Below the pieces are notes generated by a model, which worked only from the letters and a program-made list of their open reading frames with translations, was not told the origin of the DNA and made no database searches. Positions 2,150-58,468 of a stretch of 64,000 bases of DNA are shown here, in pieces (positions within the stretch are counted from its first letter, which is position 1; every line of letters begins with the position of its first letter). The position numbers and the translations under genes were made by a program. Source of the stretch: Desulfosudis oleivorans (GTDB taxonomy: Bacteria; Desulfobacterota; Desulfobacteria; Desulfobacterales; SURF-7); NCBI GenBank assembly GCA_020723305.1, contig DYJC01000002.1, positions 186,001-250,000 on the forward strand. Reading direction: 5' to 3'.

Positions 2150-4570
2150 ATGGCTGAAACTGATAAAGACGATTTGATTAGTCTGATTCAAGATGACGAA
2201 GGAAAGACAGAAATTCCGGATGAGCTTCCACTTCTGCCTGTACGGGATGTTGTTATATTTACAGATATGTTGTTACCATTGTTTATTGGGCGTGAGAAGT
2301 CGGTCACAGCTATGGAAGCGGCTGTCGAGAATGACAAGCTCCTTTTTCTCGCTACCCAAAAGGATCCTACAATTGAAAATCCGGATCCGGATGAGATCTA
2401 TCTTGTTGGGACGGTCGGCAGAATTCTCAGGATGCTGAAATTGCCGGATGGCCGTCTCAAAGCCCTGGTGCAAGGGATTTCAAAAGCCAGAATTGTGAAA
2501 TACACACAGAAAAAGAACACCTATCGGGTTAAGATTGAGTTGATAAAAGAGCAGGCTGCAGGAGAAGTAAGCCTCGAATCCGAAGCGTTGATGAGGAATG
2601 TCCGGGAGCAGTGCGAGAAGATTTTATCGCTCAGGGGAGAGATGACAGGCGAAGTAGGTTCCATTCTGGATAACATAGAAGATCCAGGCAAACTGGCTGA
2701 TCTGGTTGCTTCGAATCTCCGATTGAAAACCGAAGATGCCCAGATTCTTCTTGAACTTACGGATTCGATTCAACGTTTGAATAAAATAAATGAATTTTTG
2801 TCCAAAGAGGTTGAGCTTTCTGCTGTTCAAGCAAAAATACAGTCCGATGTAAGGGATGAAATTTCAAAGAGCCAACGGGATTATTACTTGCGGGAGCAGG
2901 TCCGTGCAATCCATAAAGAGTTGGGAGAATCGGATGAAAAGACCCATGAGTTTGAGGATTACACAAAAAGAATAAAACAAGCAAAAATGCCCAAGGATGC
3001 TGAAAATGAGGCTTTGAAACAGTTGAAACGGCTTCAGTTGATGCATACTGATTCTTCAGAGGCGTCCATTTCCCGAACCTACCTTGACTGGTTGGTTGAG
3101 ATGCCATGGAGCAAATCAAGCAAAGACTATATCAATATCAAGAATGCACAGATTATTCTGGATAAGGAACACTATGGTCTTAGCAAAATTAAAGACCGGA
3201 TTCTGGAATATCTGAGTGTCCGAAAATTAAATCCAAAAATGAAGGGCTCGATCCTCTGTTTTATCGGTCCGCCCGGGGTTGGGAAAACATCCCTGGGTCA
3301 GGCGATTGCAAAGTCCATGAAAAGAAAATTTGTTCGGATCTCTTTGGGGGGTCTGAGGGATGAAGCGGAAATCAGAGGCCATCGAAGGACCTATATCGGG
3401 GCTCTGCCAGGCCGTATCATTCAGGGTTTGAAGCAGTGCGGTACCAATAATCCTGTGTTTATGATGGATGAGATTGATAAGATTGGTTCTGACTATCGTG
3501 GTGATCCCTCTTCCGCTCTTTTAGAGGTTCTTGATCCTGAACAAAATGTTGCTTTCAGCGATCACTATCTCAATCTGTCATTCGATCTTTCCAAGGTTAT
3601 GTTTATTTTAACGGCAAATTTGACGGATACGATACCGTCAGCCCTCATGGATCGAATGGAAATCATCAGCATTCCGGGGTATACGGAAGAGGAAAAAAGA
3701 GTAATTGCCGAAAAATATCTGCTTCCAAGGCAAATCAGAGAAAACGGTTTGCAGACCAGCAAGAGTCTGACCATCAGTCCGAACGCCATGGATGAAATTA
3801 TTACCGGATATACATCGGAAGCAGGCTTGCGAAATCTGGAACGGGAGCTTGGGACGATCTGCCGGAAAGTGGCCAGAAGAAAAGCAGAAGGAGATAAAAA
3901 ACCGGTCACGATTACTCGGACAAATCTGGAGAAATTTCTTGGTGTTACAAAATTTATACCGGAAATGGATCAGGAAGAAAGTCAGATTGGTCTGGCTACG
4001 GGTCTGGCCTGGACGCAGGTCGGCGGAGAGGTTTTGTATGTTGAAGCATCCCTTTTGCCTGGCAAGGGGGAACTGATCATTACCGGGCAGCTTGGAGAGG
4101 TCATGCAGGAGTCGGCTCGTGCAGCACTGAGTTATGCAAGAGCGAATATGAAAACATTCCATATTGACAAAGAGTTTTTTGAGAATCGGGATATTCATAT
4201 TCATGTTCCAGCGGGTGCAATTCCAAAGGATGGACCGTCTGCGGGTATTGCCATGGCAACCGCCTTGATTTCTGCAATGACGGAAACTCCAATCAACAAG
4301 TATGTAGCCATGACCGGTGAAATTACCTTAAGGGGTCGGGTTCTTCCCATCGGGGGGCTGAAAGAGAAGGCTTTGGGGGCTCTGAGAGCGGGTATTCGAA
4401 CCATTATTATTCCTGAAAAAAATAAAAAGGATCTATCCGAGATCCCGAAGAATGTGAAAAAGAAAATTAACTTTATTCCCGTGAAACAGATGGATAAAGT
4501 GCTTTCGATCGCACTTGAAGAGATCAAAAAGAAATCCAGGACAAAAAAGACCGGTAAAAAGAAAAAATGA
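2150..4570 (+). CDS. lon: ATP-dependent Lon protease
   Basis: Cytoplasmic AAA+ serine protease that degrades misfolded and regulatory proteins. The order is the Lon substrate-binding domain (about residues 25-215, opening with LPLLPVRDVVIF), a helical linker, an AAA+ module with Walker A GPPGVGKTS near residue 373 and Walker B FMMDEIDK, then the C-terminal protease. The catalytic serine is in PKDGPSAG near residue 697, and the lysine partner lies in the GGLKEKALGA region near 740. At 806 residues it is full length for LonA. The ATG is preceded by an AGGAGA Shine-Dalgarno. The C-terminus is unusually lysine-rich. The stop overlaps the tsaB start (ATGA), so the two are translationally coupled. 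Confidence 0.98.
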   Translation: MAETDKDDLISLIQDDEGKTEIPDELPLLPVRDVVIFTDMLLPLFIGREKSVTAMEAAVENDKLLFLATQKDPTIENPDPDEIYLVGTVGRILRMLKLPDGRLKALVQGISKARIVKYTQKKNTYRVKIELIKEQAAGEVSLESEALMRNVREQCEKILSLRGEMTGEVGSILDNIEDPGKLADLVASNLRLKTEDAQILLELTDSIQRLNKINEFLSKEVELSAVQAKIQSDVRDEISKSQRDYYLREQVRAIHKELGESDEKTHEFEDYTKRIKQAKMPKDAENEALKQLKRLQLMHTDSSEASISRTYLDWLVEMPWSKSSKDYINIKNAQIILDKEHYGLSKIKDRILEYLSVRKLNPKMKGSILCFIGPPGVGKTSLGQAIAKSMKRKFVRISLGGLRDEAEIRGHRRTYIGALPGRIIQGLKQCGTNNPVFMMDEIDKIGSDYRGDPSSALLEVLDPEQNVAFSDHYLNLSFDLSKVMFILTANLTDTIPSALMDRMEIISIPGYTEEEKRVIAEKYLLPRQIRENGLQTSKSLTISPNAMDEIITGYTSEAGLRNLERELGTICRKVARRKAEGDKKPVTITRTNLEKFLGVTKFIPEMDQEESQIGLATGLAWTQVGGEVLYVEASLLPGKGELIITGQLGEVMQESARAALSYARANMKTFHIDKEFFENRDIHIHVPAGAIPKDGPSAGIAMATALISAMTETPINKYVAMTGEITLRGRVLPIGGLKEKALGALRAGIRTIIIPEKNKKDLSEIPKNVKKKINFIPVKQMDKVLSIALEEIKKKSRTKKTGKKKK

Positions 4571-53475: not shown

Positions 53476-53504
53476 GGAAATTTTTGTTTGGCTCGCCTTT
53501 ATCC

Positions 53505-53523
53505 TTGACATGGTAGAACTACC
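53505..53523 (+). promoter_or_regulatory. candidate promoter/operator of the protease-MazG-nuclease operon
   Basis: TTGACA at 53505-53510 is followed immediately by the 12-bp inverted repeat GGTAG-AA-CTACC (53512-53523). No good -10 sits at 17 nt; CTATCC is the closest. The inverted repeat in the promoter region could bind a repressor. Confidence 0.35.
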
Positions 53524-53625
53524 TCCGCTATCCTTAAAATAATTTGAAAAATGTTTTATTCCACTGATAACAGGATGTTTTTTATATAATTTCTACACAA
53601 TAATCTTACTGAAGAACACTTACTC

Positions 53626-55578
53626 ATGATAATTGTCTCTGTTCCATTAAAAGATATCATCCTTGATCCCTCAAAAAAGATAGACATTTCTTTGTTACCG
53701 AAAGAAGATGCAATCTTATTGCTTAAAAACTATTACGGATTTCTCTCTTCCACTATAGAAGTTTCCATACAAAACGGGGTTGCGATCATTGAGCTGAAAG
53801 AACCGAAAAAGGAAAGAATAAACGATGCATTAATAACATACAGCAAGGGCGTCAAAGCAGCTCAGCAGGGAGACTATCATAAAGCTGTCAAACACTTCCT
53901 GAAGGTGATTGGCACAATCCCTCACCATGTAGATGCAAGAAGAAACCTCTCAATGGCTTATCTTGAATTGGGGAATTCGGATAAAGCACTGAAGCATCTC
54001 AAGGAGTGTATTCAACTGGACCCGAATAATGTATGGTCATATCTTCTGCTCGGAAATATTTATGCAAAATATGTTCATAATCAGGATATCGCTGAATTCT
54101 ATTTTGAAAAGGGGCTTTCAATCAGCCCTGATGATAATATTTTACTAAACAATTATGCGGCTTTGAAAATGGAGAAGAAACAGTTCAAGGAAGCGCAGAA
54201 TCTGTTTGAAAAAGCTCTTGAAATTGATCCATCATATCCAAATACATATTATGGGCTATCCCTGTTATTTCAGTCTACGGGAAATCCCGAACGTGCATTG
54301 GAATTTCTGAACAGACTATTTGATCAACCGAAATCTGACGATATCAGGAACACACAGGTTTATAAGCAGGCATGGGGTTTATTTATTGAAATCAATAAAG
54401 ATGTTGCTGAAAAAATTTGTGACAAACTCATAGAGTTTATTCTGTACCATAAAAAAGATGCTGAAGAGAGAACCGGTTTTCCTATAAAGGTTCTTGAAGA
54501 CAATTCTCTTGAATATGTTTCTGCAATAGCCCAGATGGCATGGAAGAATGACCACAAAGAACATATTATCAGATATCGCAAAAAAACACCCGCTGTTACC
54601 CCGCATCTTATTGCTCATGAAATTGAACATATCCTTCTTGAAAATGCAGCTAGAAAGCAAGAGCGAAACCGCTTTTTTATGACTTCTGCACAAACAAGAG
54701 AACATGCCATACGTTCTGTCAGTGATCATATCTATAAACTGCAGAAACAGGGTTTTGCAGAGGATAAAATATCAGAGGTGATGATTCAAATTACCGGCGG
54801 TCTCTGTAATCAGCTTTTCAACTGCCCGCTTGACATGGTGGTTGAATACAGCATTTTTCAAAAATATGATAAACTTCGTTCCAGCCAGATCATTTCACTT
54901 GACCAGTTATACAAAGAAGCCCTGTATGTTTTTACAAACAGTGAAATCAGAAAACTCACCCCCCCCCATGTATATAATTCAAATATATCAATGAATTGTG
55001 CTTCTGCGCTTTTTCTTGATTACTTGTTAAAAAATAAATCAGACTATGCTGCGCCCTATAAAACTTCAAAAGTTTTTCGGACCGGCACACAATTGTTCAA
55101 CATCTGGAAAAAGAAGATCGACCTGTTTGCCCCCGGTGACGAGTATGAAATGGTTGACGAGTATGCTCAGATTTTAAAATTGCAGGGCTGGTATAGCTGG
55201 AAGCATGACACAGTAAGATCGTCCCCTGATGCAAGCACATCTGTCGGTGAGTCAGGTTCAGAACAGATAAAAGAAAAAGAGCCCGCAGCTTTTTACTATT
55301 GTCTGGATGCTCTTCAACGATTTGCAGGTAAATCACGAGAGGAAATTTTCCAAGTTGTTTCAGAGATCGGTATGCTCGGAACAAAGGGTATAAATTATTC
55401 TGATCCTGATAAAAAATATTTCATAAACAGTATTCCACAGAAAGAATTTACCGGACTTCATCTTTTGTGCCTGATGTATACCGGTTTTAAGATTATTGAA
55501 CCCGATCTCGATACTGGACTTGATTTTGCTGATGCTTACAAGATGGCATTTGATGTTCACAATTTAAAAATACTTTGA
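53626..55578 (+). CDS. TPR protein with an HExxH zinc-metalloprotease motif
   Basis: A 650-residue protein. Residues 1-65 are a short unassigned beta-rich region. TPR units span about residues 66-230 (for example KGVKAAQQGDYHKAVKHFLKVI and KALEIDPSYPNTYYGLSLLFQ). The motif HEIEH is at residues 331-335 in LIAHEIEHILLEN, the arrangement of zinc-dependent proteases and of ImmA/IrrE-like peptidases. The C-terminal 300 residues are helical and unassigned. It is the first gene of a three-gene operon, 2 nt before the MazG gene. I infer a regulated protease that recognises a partner through TPRs; a catalytic third ligand is not identified. Confidence 0.72.
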   Translation: MIIVSVPLKDIILDPSKKIDISLLPKEDAILLLKNYYGFLSSTIEVSIQNGVAIIELKEPKKERINDALITYSKGVKAAQQGDYHKAVKHFLKVIGTIPHHVDARRNLSMAYLELGNSDKALKHLKECIQLDPNNVWSYLLLGNIYAKYVHNQDIAEFYFEKGLSISPDDNILLNNYAALKMEKKQFKEAQNLFEKALEIDPSYPNTYYGLSLLFQSTGNPERALEFLNRLFDQPKSDDIRNTQVYKQAWGLFIEINKDVAEKICDKLIEFILYHKKDAEERTGFPIKVLEDNSLEYVSAIAQMAWKNDHKEHIIRYRKKTPAVTPHLIAHEIEHILLENAARKQERNRFFMTSAQTREHAIRSVSDHIYKLQKQGFAEDKISEVMIQITGGLCNQLFNCPLDMVVEYSIFQKYDKLRSSQIISLDQLYKEALYVFTNSEIRKLTPPHVYNSNISMNCASALFLDYLLKNKSDYAAPYKTSKVFRTGTQLFNIWKKKIDLFAPGDEYEMVDEYAQILKLQGWYSWKHDTVRSSPDASTSVGESGSEQIKEKEPAAFYYCLDALQRFAGKSREEIFQVVSEIGMLGTKGINYSDPDKKYFINSIPQKEFTGLHLLCLMYTGFKIIEPDLDTGLDFADAYKMAFDVHNLKIL

Positions 55579-55580
55579 CT

Positions 55581-55919
55581 ATGAAAGAACTTATCCAGGA
55601 ACTAAGGAATTTTGCTGAGGAACGGGATTGGAATCAGTTCCACTCTCCCAAGAATCTATCCATAGCCCTTACTGTTGAAACAGCAGAATTGTTGGAAGAA
55701 TTCCAGTGGCTGACCGAAGAGCAGAGCCGAAAATTGGATCAGGATCGTCTCAATCGCATTAAAGATGAGATAGGCGACGTTATGATCTATCTGATTCTTC
55801 TGTCAGACCATCTTAGTATTGATCCAATATCTGCCGCTTTTGAGAAAATTGAAAAAAATCGGGAGAAGTATCCAGCTCAAAAGGTGCGGGGTACTGCCAA
55901 GAAATATACGGAGTTATGA
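55581..55919 (+). CDS. MazG-like nucleotide pyrophosphohydrolase
   Basis: A 112-residue all-alpha NTP pyrophosphohydrolase. The metal-binding residues are in TVETAELLEEFQW (E-x-x-E type) and in KDEIGDVMIYLILLSDHL (E-x-x-D). The C-terminal KYPAQKVRGTAKKYTEL is characteristic of the short RS21-C6/dCTPase-like MazG group. It is coupled to both neighbours: 2 nt after the TPR-protease stop and 1 nt before the next start. The substrate may be a nucleotide of the cell or a modified phage nucleotide. Confidence 0.9.
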   Translation: MKELIQELRNFAEERDWNQFHSPKNLSIALTVETAELLEEFQWLTEEQSRKLDQDRLNRIKDEIGDVMIYLILLSDHLSIDPISAAFEKIEKNREKYPAQKVRGTAKKYTEL

Positions 55920-55920
55920 G

Positions 55921-58380
55921 ATGCGGTTATACGCCGGAATGTCGAGCAATTTCATTCATGACACTGTCCACAATCAAATAGCTGGCAAGTTATCGGATGA
56001 ATTTATCCGATACTTTCGATACAAGCCAGCACCGAGCGAAGTGAATTCTTGGCGCAACTCCCTCCGGGCTGTATCGGATGTTTTTCAAGCAGCTCGTTTA
56101 AACGATCATGGCGTCATTCTTGAATTTCAACTCCCTTTGACCTCCAGGCGGCTTGATTGTCTCATCTGTGGGAAAAATGGTCAGGATAGGGACAATGCGG
56201 TCATTATCGAGCTGAAACAATGGGACAAGTGTGGAAGGGCCGCCAGTGATAACCTCGTTACCGCTTGGGTCGGTGGAGCAGAACGGGAGATTCTGCACCC
56301 TTCTGCTCAGGTCGGCCAGTACCATCAGTATCTTACTGATAACCATACCGCTTTCCATGAAGGCCCGGCGCCGGTTCAGCTAAAATCATGTGCTTACCTG
56401 CATAACTACTTCGCCGAAGAAGGCGACCCCCTTTTTGACGATTCTTTCACACCGCTTCTTGAACAGTATCCGTCATATACTGCAGACGATGTAACGCTGC
56501 TCAAGGATTTTCTCATAAGTAGACTCAGCGGTGGTTCAGGTCAGCCTGTGCTACATAAGATAGAGGAAAGTAAATACCGTCCAAGCAAAAAACTTATGGA
56601 GCATGTCAGCAATGTCATTCGTGGGAAAAAAGAATACGTTCTCCTGGACGAGCAATATTTGGTCTACAACAAGGTGCTTTCCTGCAGTAAAGATGGATTT
56701 CATGACCGCCGAAAGACGGTCATTATAGTTAAAGGCGGTCCAGGAACCGGGAAGTCAGTCATCGCTATCAATCTGATGAGTGACTTGCTCGCACAGGAGC
56801 TTAATGCCCATTACGCAACTGGCTCCAAGGCATTTACTGAGACGTTACGTAAGGTTATTGGCCAGCGGGGATCAGCCCATTTTAAGTATTTTAATAGTTA
56901 TGCGCAGGCACAATCAAATGAGATTGATATCATGGTTTGTGATGAAGCGCACCGTATCCGTAAAACGAGCAACAGCAGATTTACGCCTAAAGGACAAAAG
57001 AGCAACAAACCCCAGATTCAGGAAATACTTGATGCAGCCAAGGTAAGCGTTTTTTTCATAGATGACAAACAGGTGGTAAGGCCTGACGAAATAGGTTCGT
57101 CCGGATTTATCAGGAAGCAGGCAGAGAAGAACAACTGTCGTGTTTTCGAATATGAGATTGAGGCCCAGTTTCGCTGTGCCGGTTCCGACGGCTTTGTTAA
57201 CTGGATCAATAACACCCTTGATATTGAACGGACTGCAAATGTCATTTGGGAAGGTGATGAGTTATTCGAATTTAGGATATTCTCAACGCCGAAAGCACTC
57301 GACGCTGCTATAAGAGAAAAGGCAGGGAGTGGTTTCACCGCACGCATGACCGCTGGCTTTTGCTGGCCATGGTCTAATCCAAATAATGATGGAACACTTG
57401 TAGAAGATGTTCAGATTGGAGAATATAGAAGACCATGGAATGCCAAGCCTGATGCACGTCGTCTCGCAGCCGGGATACCAAAAGCGCCTTTGTGGGCGTA
57501 TGATTCGAATGGCATCGATCAGATCGGCTGTATTTACACTGCTCAGGGGTTCGAGTTTGATTATGTTGGTGTCATTGTCGGCAATGATCTGACTCGCAAC
57601 CCTGACGACCAAAAGTGGGAAGCCCATCAAACTAATTCATTTGACGGACCTGTGAAAAGGGCGCGGGAAAGATTCGTGGAGCTTGTAAAAAATACCTACC
57701 GAGTTCTGCTTTCCCGTGGAATGAAGGGCTGTTACGTTTACTTTACTGATAAGGACACCGAGCGATTTTTCAAGAGCCGAATGAATATTTTAACAGTATT
57801 GGAAGATTCTGCTGTTATGTCGAAAAGCCCATTATTACGGACAGAAGTGGCTATTGTGCCGTTTAGGCGGTTGACGCTCAGTGAAGCAATGCCTTTTAAG
57901 AACTGTGTACCTCTTTACGACCTGAAGGTTGCTGCGGGCCTATTCAGCGATGAGCAGCAAGTAAAAGCCCTGCTCCCTGAGAAGGATGGAGAAAACGTTT
58001 CGGACATTGATTGGATAGAGCTCCCCAATGCTTTTCGACCGCAGCGGGGACTTTTTGTTGCTAAGGTCGTCGGTGAATCGATGAATCGCCGGATACCGAA
58101 TGGGGCTTGGTGTCTCTTCAGGTTGAATCCTGAGGGTACCCGGCAGGGTAAAGTTGTACTTGCACAGCATCGGGAAATTGCTGATACCGATACAGGCGGA
58201 CACTATACCGTCAAGGTTTACGAGAGCGTAAAGGAGGAACTATCAGATGGAACATGGAGACATGCTTCCATCATTCTCCGGCCTGATACGACAGCATCAG
58301 GATACGAACCGATCATACTTAACGAGGAGCAGGGTGATGATTTGAAGGTGATTGCGGAACTGGTTGCGGTGCTATTTTAA
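55921..58380 (+). CDS. PD-(D/E)XK nuclease - DUF2075 helicase - S24 peptidase fusion
   Basis: An 819-residue three-module protein. The N-terminal nuclease-like module has E68, D79 and the E97-L-K99 motif (EFQLPLTSRRLDC...VIIELKQW), a PD-(D/E)XK pattern. The helicase has Walker A GGPGTGKS at 272-279 and DEAH at 341-344, as in DUF2075/Schlafen-type proteins, with an AQGFEFDYVGVI motif typical of SF1 motif V. The C-terminal 110 residues resemble the S24 (LexA/UmuD) catalytic domain: S720 in VVGESMNRRIPNGAW and K765 in YTVKVYE. Start at 55921 is set by a 1-nt gap to MazG. An autoproteolytic C-terminus on a nuclease-helicase is unusual. Confidence 0.8.
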   Translation: MRLYAGMSSNFIHDTVHNQIAGKLSDEFIRYFRYKPAPSEVNSWRNSLRAVSDVFQAARLNDHGVILEFQLPLTSRRLDCLICGKNGQDRDNAVIIELKQWDKCGRAASDNLVTAWVGGAEREILHPSAQVGQYHQYLTDNHTAFHEGPAPVQLKSCAYLHNYFAEEGDPLFDDSFTPLLEQYPSYTADDVTLLKDFLISRLSGGSGQPVLHKIEESKYRPSKKLMEHVSNVIRGKKEYVLLDEQYLVYNKVLSCSKDGFHDRRKTVIIVKGGPGTGKSVIAINLMSDLLAQELNAHYATGSKAFTETLRKVIGQRGSAHFKYFNSYAQAQSNEIDIMVCDEAHRIRKTSNSRFTPKGQKSNKPQIQEILDAAKVSVFFIDDKQVVRPDEIGSSGFIRKQAEKNNCRVFEYEIEAQFRCAGSDGFVNWINNTLDIERTANVIWEGDELFEFRIFSTPKALDAAIREKAGSGFTARMTAGFCWPWSNPNNDGTLVEDVQIGEYRRPWNAKPDARRLAAGIPKAPLWAYDSNGIDQIGCIYTAQGFEFDYVGVIVGNDLTRNPDDQKWEAHQTNSFDGPVKRARERFVELVKNTYRVLLSRGMKGCYVYFTDKDTERFFKSRMNILTVLEDSAVMSKSPLLRTEVAIVPFRRLTLSEAMPFKNCVPLYDLKVAAGLFSDEQQVKALLPEKDGENVSDIDWIELPNAFRPQRGLFVAKVVGESMNRRIPNGAWCLFRLNPEGTRQGKVVLAQHREIADTDTGGHYTVKVYESVKEELSDGTWRHASIILRPDTTASGYEPIILNEEQGDDLKVIAELVAVLF

Positions 58381-58468
58381 TTGTACTTATTGCATTTTTA
58401 TGACAGACTTGATTATAGGCCTTTTCAAATTGCATATTCAAATTTTTTTTGTAAAAACTCCGTTCAGC

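Follow-up and report, generated by a model that had tools for sequence, protein, structure and literature searches.

A recurrent operon of a DCTPP1-like MazG, a nuclease-helicase with a LexA-like tail and a TPR-metalloprotease: a candidate restriction-type defence system

Introduction

Three genes lying almost end to end in Desulfosudis oleivorans raise the question of what a metalloprotease-like protein, a MazG enzyme and a nuclease-helicase might do together. They occupy positions 53626-58380, all on the forward strand, of a 64,000-nucleotide stretch of DNA (contig DYJC01000002.1, positions 186,001 to 250,000), hereafter the window, from whose first nucleotide the coordinates of all its features are counted. 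Loci from other records are numbered with L and genomes with G. The original prediction had placed the three genes in a defence context and had proposed that the protease acts on the S24 peptidase domain carried by the nuclease-helicase.

Three adjacent genes recur as an operon

An ORF check confirmed the three predicted ORFs with their coordinates and their spacing, 2 nt between genes 1 and 2 and 1 nt between genes 2 and 3. Gene 1 (53626..55578, 650 aa), recognised by its ORF, a TPR profile and homologues of its protease part, encodes a TPR region, a zincin-like metalloprotease and a C-terminal domain. Gene 2 (55581..55919, ATG at 55581, 112 aa) encodes a MazG pyrophosphohydrolase resembling DCTPP1/RS21-C6, and gene 3 (55921..58380, ATG at 55921, 819 aa) a PD-(D/E)XK nuclease, an SLFN-g3 helicase and a LexA-type S24 tail in one protein. 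The residues singled out by the prediction, H331 (HEIEH), E97, K278 (GTGKS) and S720 (GESM), were all correct. Promoter and terminator scans around the operon gave matches at chance level only.

A search of genome contigs with gene 3 as sole bait yielded 28 loci, 27 of them informative (L026 starts inside gene 3). MazG adjoined gene 3 in 22 of these 27, a ratio that implies more independent cases than there are, because many of the Bacilli loci are closely similar. It lay immediately upstream or one gene away, and downstream once; five loci had no adjacent MazG (L004, L011, L012, L015 and L025). The pair occurred in Deltaproteobacteria, Bacilli/Clostridia, Bacteroidota (Pedobacter), Planctomycetota, Woesearchaeota and Lokiarchaeota. 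The pairing held on a Halalkalicoccus plasmid and did not hold for the plasmid relatives from Methanosphaera and Streptomyces.

In the phylum of the window, MazG was present at all seven intact gene-3 loci. Such a MazG (E below 1e-15) is carried by 20 of the 247 genomes of this phylum (~8%), and at that frequency the chance of seven in seven is ~2e-8 if the loci are independent. Two further gene-3 loci were degraded, one of them retaining a MazG fragment. The operon MazG was the sole copy in all 11 operon-bearing genomes checked.

The prediction had called for a check on co-occurrence in other genomes, and the trio does recur, with its gene order and close spacing kept. It was complete in the window, L002, G034, G404, G914 (with the protease and the TPR/C-terminal part as two separate genes), two Bacteroidota loci (L122 and L130), a Marivirga plasmid (with broken ORFs) and a Microcystis phage record (L156). 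The operon is real, recurrent and modular, and its genes occur together more often than by chance. In our reading, its core is the DCTPP1-like MazG together with the nuclease-helicase.

The phage record (L156, 1629-5863; PP438423, Microcystis phage Mwe-JY31) carries the full trio without S24 in 22 kb of sequence, whose genes are all annotated as hypothetical except one ParA-like gene. Although labelled as a phage, this record may be a satellite or a plasmid-like element. The viral contigs searched yielded no close relatives.

Gene 3 is a nuclease-helicase with a LexA-like tail

The N-terminal domain of gene 3 (55921..56535) contains D79 and E97-L-K99, and this D...ExK triad was invariant in 25/25 relatives. 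An AF2 model of residues 1-230 had a pLDDT of 87.9; its best VIA-align matches were Can2, Card1, EndoMS, Kpn2I, BstEII and FokI, and the top matches were nearly all PD-(D/E)XK enzymes, at low Z of 4.5-6.8 (about 5-7 for the best). Foldseek gave no significant match for this model (E above 0.3), and sequence searches of gene 3 and of the nuclease domain against the PDB yielded nothing useful. The invariant residues, the AF2 model and the structural matches support a PD-(D/E)XK nuclease. The helicase (residues 265-610, 56713..57750; Walker K278, DEAH at 341) matched the SLFN-g3 family, formerly DUF2075 (PF09848), at E 4e-89 and 299.7 bits, against a gathering score of 24, over positions 1-354 of the 354 in the profile.

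The tail (residues 637-819, 57829..58377) contains Ser720 and Lys765 and a predicted self-cleavage site between Ala672 and Gly673 (57934..57939, LKVAA/GLFS). The Pfam Peptidase_S24 profile matched the window protein just below its gathering score (22.2 against 23.3 bits, E 1e-4) and exceeded the cut-off in L089, L090 and L091. The phage-repressor profile phrog_4 covered residues 663-816 of gene 3, LexA chains appeared weakly in a PDB profile search (E about 0.05), and the L090 tail matched UmuD in NCBIfam. In an alignment of 15 tails, which excludes L005 (whose site reads RAAAN), the P1 Ala and the catalytic Ser and Lys were invariant in 15/15 and the P1' Gly was present in 13/15. Ala-to-Ser spacing was 35-48 residues and Ser-to-Lys spacing 45-47 in these tails; in LexA the distances are 35 and 37. 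As in LexA, UmuD and CI, the Ala-Gly site is followed by Ser and then Lys at comparable distances, but the fusion partner of the tail is a nuclease-helicase and not a DNA-binding domain.

The tail was found in the window, L002-L005, L015, L062-L064, L087, L088 and L148. On the Halomonas megaplasmid (L062, 7920-10390) it lies in a different frame from the helicase, as a split gene or a sequencing error. LexA-like tails were also observed on a type I HsdR (L089, 7219-10500) and on type IV-like ResIII helicases (L090, 6707-9820; L091, 1443-4637), and as a separate gene after a type IV-like helicase in L093 (9249-9743).

The predicted cut would leave a C-terminal Ala in 15/15 tails and Ala-Ala in 13/15. 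A LexA fragment ending in VAA is a ClpXP substrate. ClpXP also destroys HsdR after DNA damage, which constitutes restriction alleviation (PMC12707154). The tail is probably a portable DNA-damage switch; because cleavage would create a ...VAA end of the LexA kind and HsdR is removed by ClpXP, an off-switch appears likelier than an on-switch.

Gene 2 is a DCTPP1-like MazG

Gene 2 matched the Pfam MazG-like family at E 1e-15 (58.1 bits against a cut-off of 27) and has the ExxE...ExxD motif of MazG and DCTPP1-type enzymes (E33xxE36 and E63xxD66). It resembled the DCTPP1/RS21-C6 structure over 104 of its 112 residues (E 5e-21); the closest solved structure was the archaeal pyrophosphatase 4qgp (E 4e-24). 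Unlike the dCTP pyrophosphatase DCTPP1, gene 2 lies in an operon with a nuclease-helicase, and dCTP is here a putative substrate. The predicted effect of MazG on nucleotide pools is plausible and can be narrowed to that of a DCTPP1-like enzyme. This likeness, combined with McrBC, GmrSD and MrcB_N partners, suggests a function involving modified cytosine nucleotides. Some DCTPP1-like MazGs were located among ordinary genes. MazG is one of the predicted, unvalidated defence domains in DefensePredictor (PMC13092281).

Gene 1 is an exchangeable component

The TPR repeats of gene 1 (residues about 66-234, 53821..54327) were matched by Pfam at E 3e-22. This part was left out of homology searches because whole-TPR searches were flooded by unrelated TPR proteins. 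The protease region (residues about 261-540, 54406..55245) contains H331-E332-x-x-H335 (HEIEH, 54616..54630) and N399-x-P-x-D403-x-x-x-E407, both motifs being invariant in 15/15 aligned members. HExxH followed by a conserved acidic residue is the zincin pattern, and D403 and E407 are candidate zinc ligands. The protease part matched no Pfam family at significance, nor any entry in a PDB profile search, and its AF2 model, built from two sequences, had a pLDDT of 37. The C-terminal domain (residues 546-650, 55261..55575) is separately mobile: it is fused straight to the TPR, with the protease absent, in L009, and lies on a separate gene from the protease in L067 and L148.

The protease part was found in 14/296 Bacteroidota genomes. 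Gene 1 and MazG precede McrBC-type genes in L065 and L136, where S24 is absent; other neighbours of gene 1 were a DNA methylase (L123) and an SNF2-type helicase (L131). In other operons of MazG and gene 3, its position was taken by MrcB_N-HNH, GmrSD, HNH, an SF1 helicase or a Fic-domain protein. Since it is replaced by other genes and found beside other effectors, gene 1 is an optional and exchangeable part. In the Bacteroidota genome of L132 (7149-13866), a gene 1 homologue lies immediately before BrxA and a BrxC-type gene.

The relatives lie among restriction and defence genes

Across relatives, the recurrent neighbours were McrBC, GmrSD, HNH, MrcB_N, BREX and type I R-M genes; GmrSD was seen in L017 and L187, and MrcB_N-HNH in L152. 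The predicted defence placement is borne out by these restriction- and defence-like neighbours, and the genes flanking the operon in the window itself do not form a defence island. In several Bacilli loci (L016, L017, L019, L022 and L023), a differing gene (HNH, Hypoth_Ymh or one with no clear match) was observed between MazG and the nuclease-helicase. In L186 (1014-5609), MazG lies directly before McrB- and McrC-like genes, and gene 1 is absent.

The prediction could match the combination to no named system, and none was found in PADLOC-DB v2.0.0 or the literature searched. PADLOC-DB profiles matched gene 3 only partially (PDC-S41; AbiO, E 6.5e-14; Nhi, E 3.9e-13), gene 1 gave weak TPR-type matches only, and MazG gave none. 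The literature search, which did not extend to most subscription papers, found no paper joining DUF2075 and MazG, and a single one, listed under toxin/antitoxin and restriction, in which MazG appears together with McrBC.

Several known systems resemble parts of the operon. Nhi (nuclease-helicase immunity) and AbiO are, like gene 3, large nuclease-helicases with related helicase motifs; however, the match spans only about 180 helicase residues (profile positions 178-329 of 470 and 174-328 of 468), and gene 3 differs in its MazG partner, its S24 tail and a PD-(D/E)XK domain of its own. McrBC and other type IV (modification-dependent) restriction systems likewise combine a nuclease with an NTP-driven motor, and they share partners with gene 3: MazG together with gene 1 in two loci (L065, L136), and MazG in L186. 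McrBC was seen only in these three loci, with no AAA_5 or McrBC match among the window genes. The McrB motor is an AAA+ GTPase, whereas gene 3 has an SLFN-g3 helicase, and the window operon contains no recognised modified-base reader domain. Hachiman (HamAB) also pairs a nuclease with a helicase, and the AF2 nuclease model of gene 3 aligned weakly to 8zue_A (Z 4.3); however, Hachiman consists of two proteins, uses another helicase family and lacks MazG, protease and S24, whereas gene 3 is a single fusion.

A proposed mechanism and its alternatives

From the anatomy and co-occurrence of the genes we infer a restriction-type, DNA-degrading defence operon of exchangeable modules, a reading that, with its steps for MazG, gene 1 and the S24 off-switch, we give an even chance of being right. 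Judged by its fold and motifs, gene 3 would unwind and cut foreign DNA through its SLFN-g3 and PD-(D/E)XK domains, probably with a preference for replicating or base-modified phage DNA, because modification-dependent restriction genes recur among its neighbours. The DCTPP1-type MazG would hydrolyse dCTP or 5-modified dCTP; the phage would thereby be starved, or modified cytosine would be kept out of host DNA so that the nuclease spares the host. The TPR-zincin of gene 1 may serve as an optional sensor or regulator that is triggered through its TPR, cleaves a partner and is swapped for others in related operons. RecA filaments on damaged DNA would prompt the tail, whose motifs are in place, to cut itself at Ala672/Gly673; the nuclease-helicase, now ending in ...VAA, a LexA/ssrA-like ClpXP signal, would be destroyed. 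Such a tail would provide built-in restriction alleviation and protect the host chromosome. None of MazG, gene 1 and the S24 tail is essential, since for each of them there are gene-3 loci that lack it.

More tentatively, with somewhat less than an even chance, the LexA-type tail could be a portable damage off-switch conferring built-in restriction alleviation on restriction nuclease-helicases of several unrelated kinds (SLFN-g3, HsdR, type IV-like), with the DCTPP1-like MazG barring modified dCTP from the host genome and the Pfam-less metalloprotease acting as an exchangeable sensor. If the proposal is right, MazG and the nuclease-helicase form a widespread defence core new to PADLOC-DB v2.0.0 and the literature searched, and a lethal restriction motor is shut off upon host DNA damage through the enzyme's own LexA-like cut site. 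MazG enzymes, whose defensive role is so far a prediction awaiting validation (PMC13092281), would gain defined partners.

Two alternatives assign the S24 tail another part. The original prediction proposed that the gene 1 protease, likened to ImmA/IrrE-type enzymes, may release or inactivate the S24-carrying protein. A HExxH protease and an S24 protein are indeed neighbours in the window, L002, L063, L064 and L148. However, among loci with MazG-SLFN or SLFN, both were present in 5, gene 1 only in 4, S24 only in 7 and neither in 17, an association that is not significant (Fisher P 0.23). Gene 1 was frequently found beside effectors lacking S24, including McrBC in L065 and L136 and MazG-SLFN in L122, L130, L060 and L156; S24-tailed enzymes frequently lacked gene 1 (L003, L004, L005, L015, L062, L087 and L088, as well as HsdR in L089). 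The ImmA/IrrE (DUF955) profile had zero Pfam matches in 15 protease members, even at E 1, so that this assignment fell away, and the tail needs no outside protease because it has its own LexA-type site. Cleavage of the S24-bearing protein by an ImmA/IrrE-like gene 1 protease upon infection or damage is therefore very improbable. Alternatively, the tail could hold the nuclease-helicase inactive until RecA filaments, induced by damage or by phage, trigger a self-cleavage that frees it and causes abortive infection. The same Ala, Ser and Lys motifs fit such an on-switch, and defence nucleases released by genome-integrity sensing exist, Hachiman being an example (PMC12278908). We nevertheless consider it rather unlikely: the Ala and Ala-Ala ends left in 15/15 and 13/15 tails resemble a ClpXP signal, the many tail-less relatives of gene 3 imply that the enzyme is safe without a tail, and an active HsdR freed by damage would attack the host.

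The other two alternatives concern the operon as a whole. Its genes could serve DNA repair and nucleotide-pool maintenance and be induced with the SOS response, which would suit the house-cleaning theme of MazG, the link of nuclease-helicases to SOS and the ordinary contexts of several DCTPP1-like MazGs. This explanation is improbable given the patchy presence of the operon, its loss between congeners, its copies on plasmids and a phage record and the recurrence of restriction and BREX neighbours. Systems that defend by depleting dNTPs are known. Together with the DCTPP1 similarity, this precedent would allow MazG to be the effector, depleting dCTP on infection and halting phage replication, with gene 3 as the sensor; five gene-3 loci without MazG (listed above) and the invariant nuclease motif of gene 3 make this quite unlikely.

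Gain, loss and decay of the operon

Gene 1 contains a C9 tract (54959-54967) in the window, L002, L063 and L064; at its position the reading frame is lost in L063, L064 and L065. A programmed +1 frameshift at this tract was rejected: the gene 1 relative in L147 is in frame there and is broken instead at a T9 run. A C9 run arose in 35% of shuffles and is thus not rare here. We read the homopolymer breaks in gene 1 as ordinary indels, decay or assembly errors; they may also reflect phase variation.

The trio is absent from three congeners (G001, G002 and G003). In G003 the missing segment corresponds to 53490..58455 of the window, with flanks 90-93% identical, and a 28-nt remnant at the junction agrees at 23 of 28 positions with 58301-58328, the 3' end of gene 3. 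Because of this remnant, the trio was probably deleted in G003 rather than newly gained in the window. Defence genes commonly show such turnover. The deletion scar with its gene 3 remnant lies at 4429-4521 of the G003 locus (L214).
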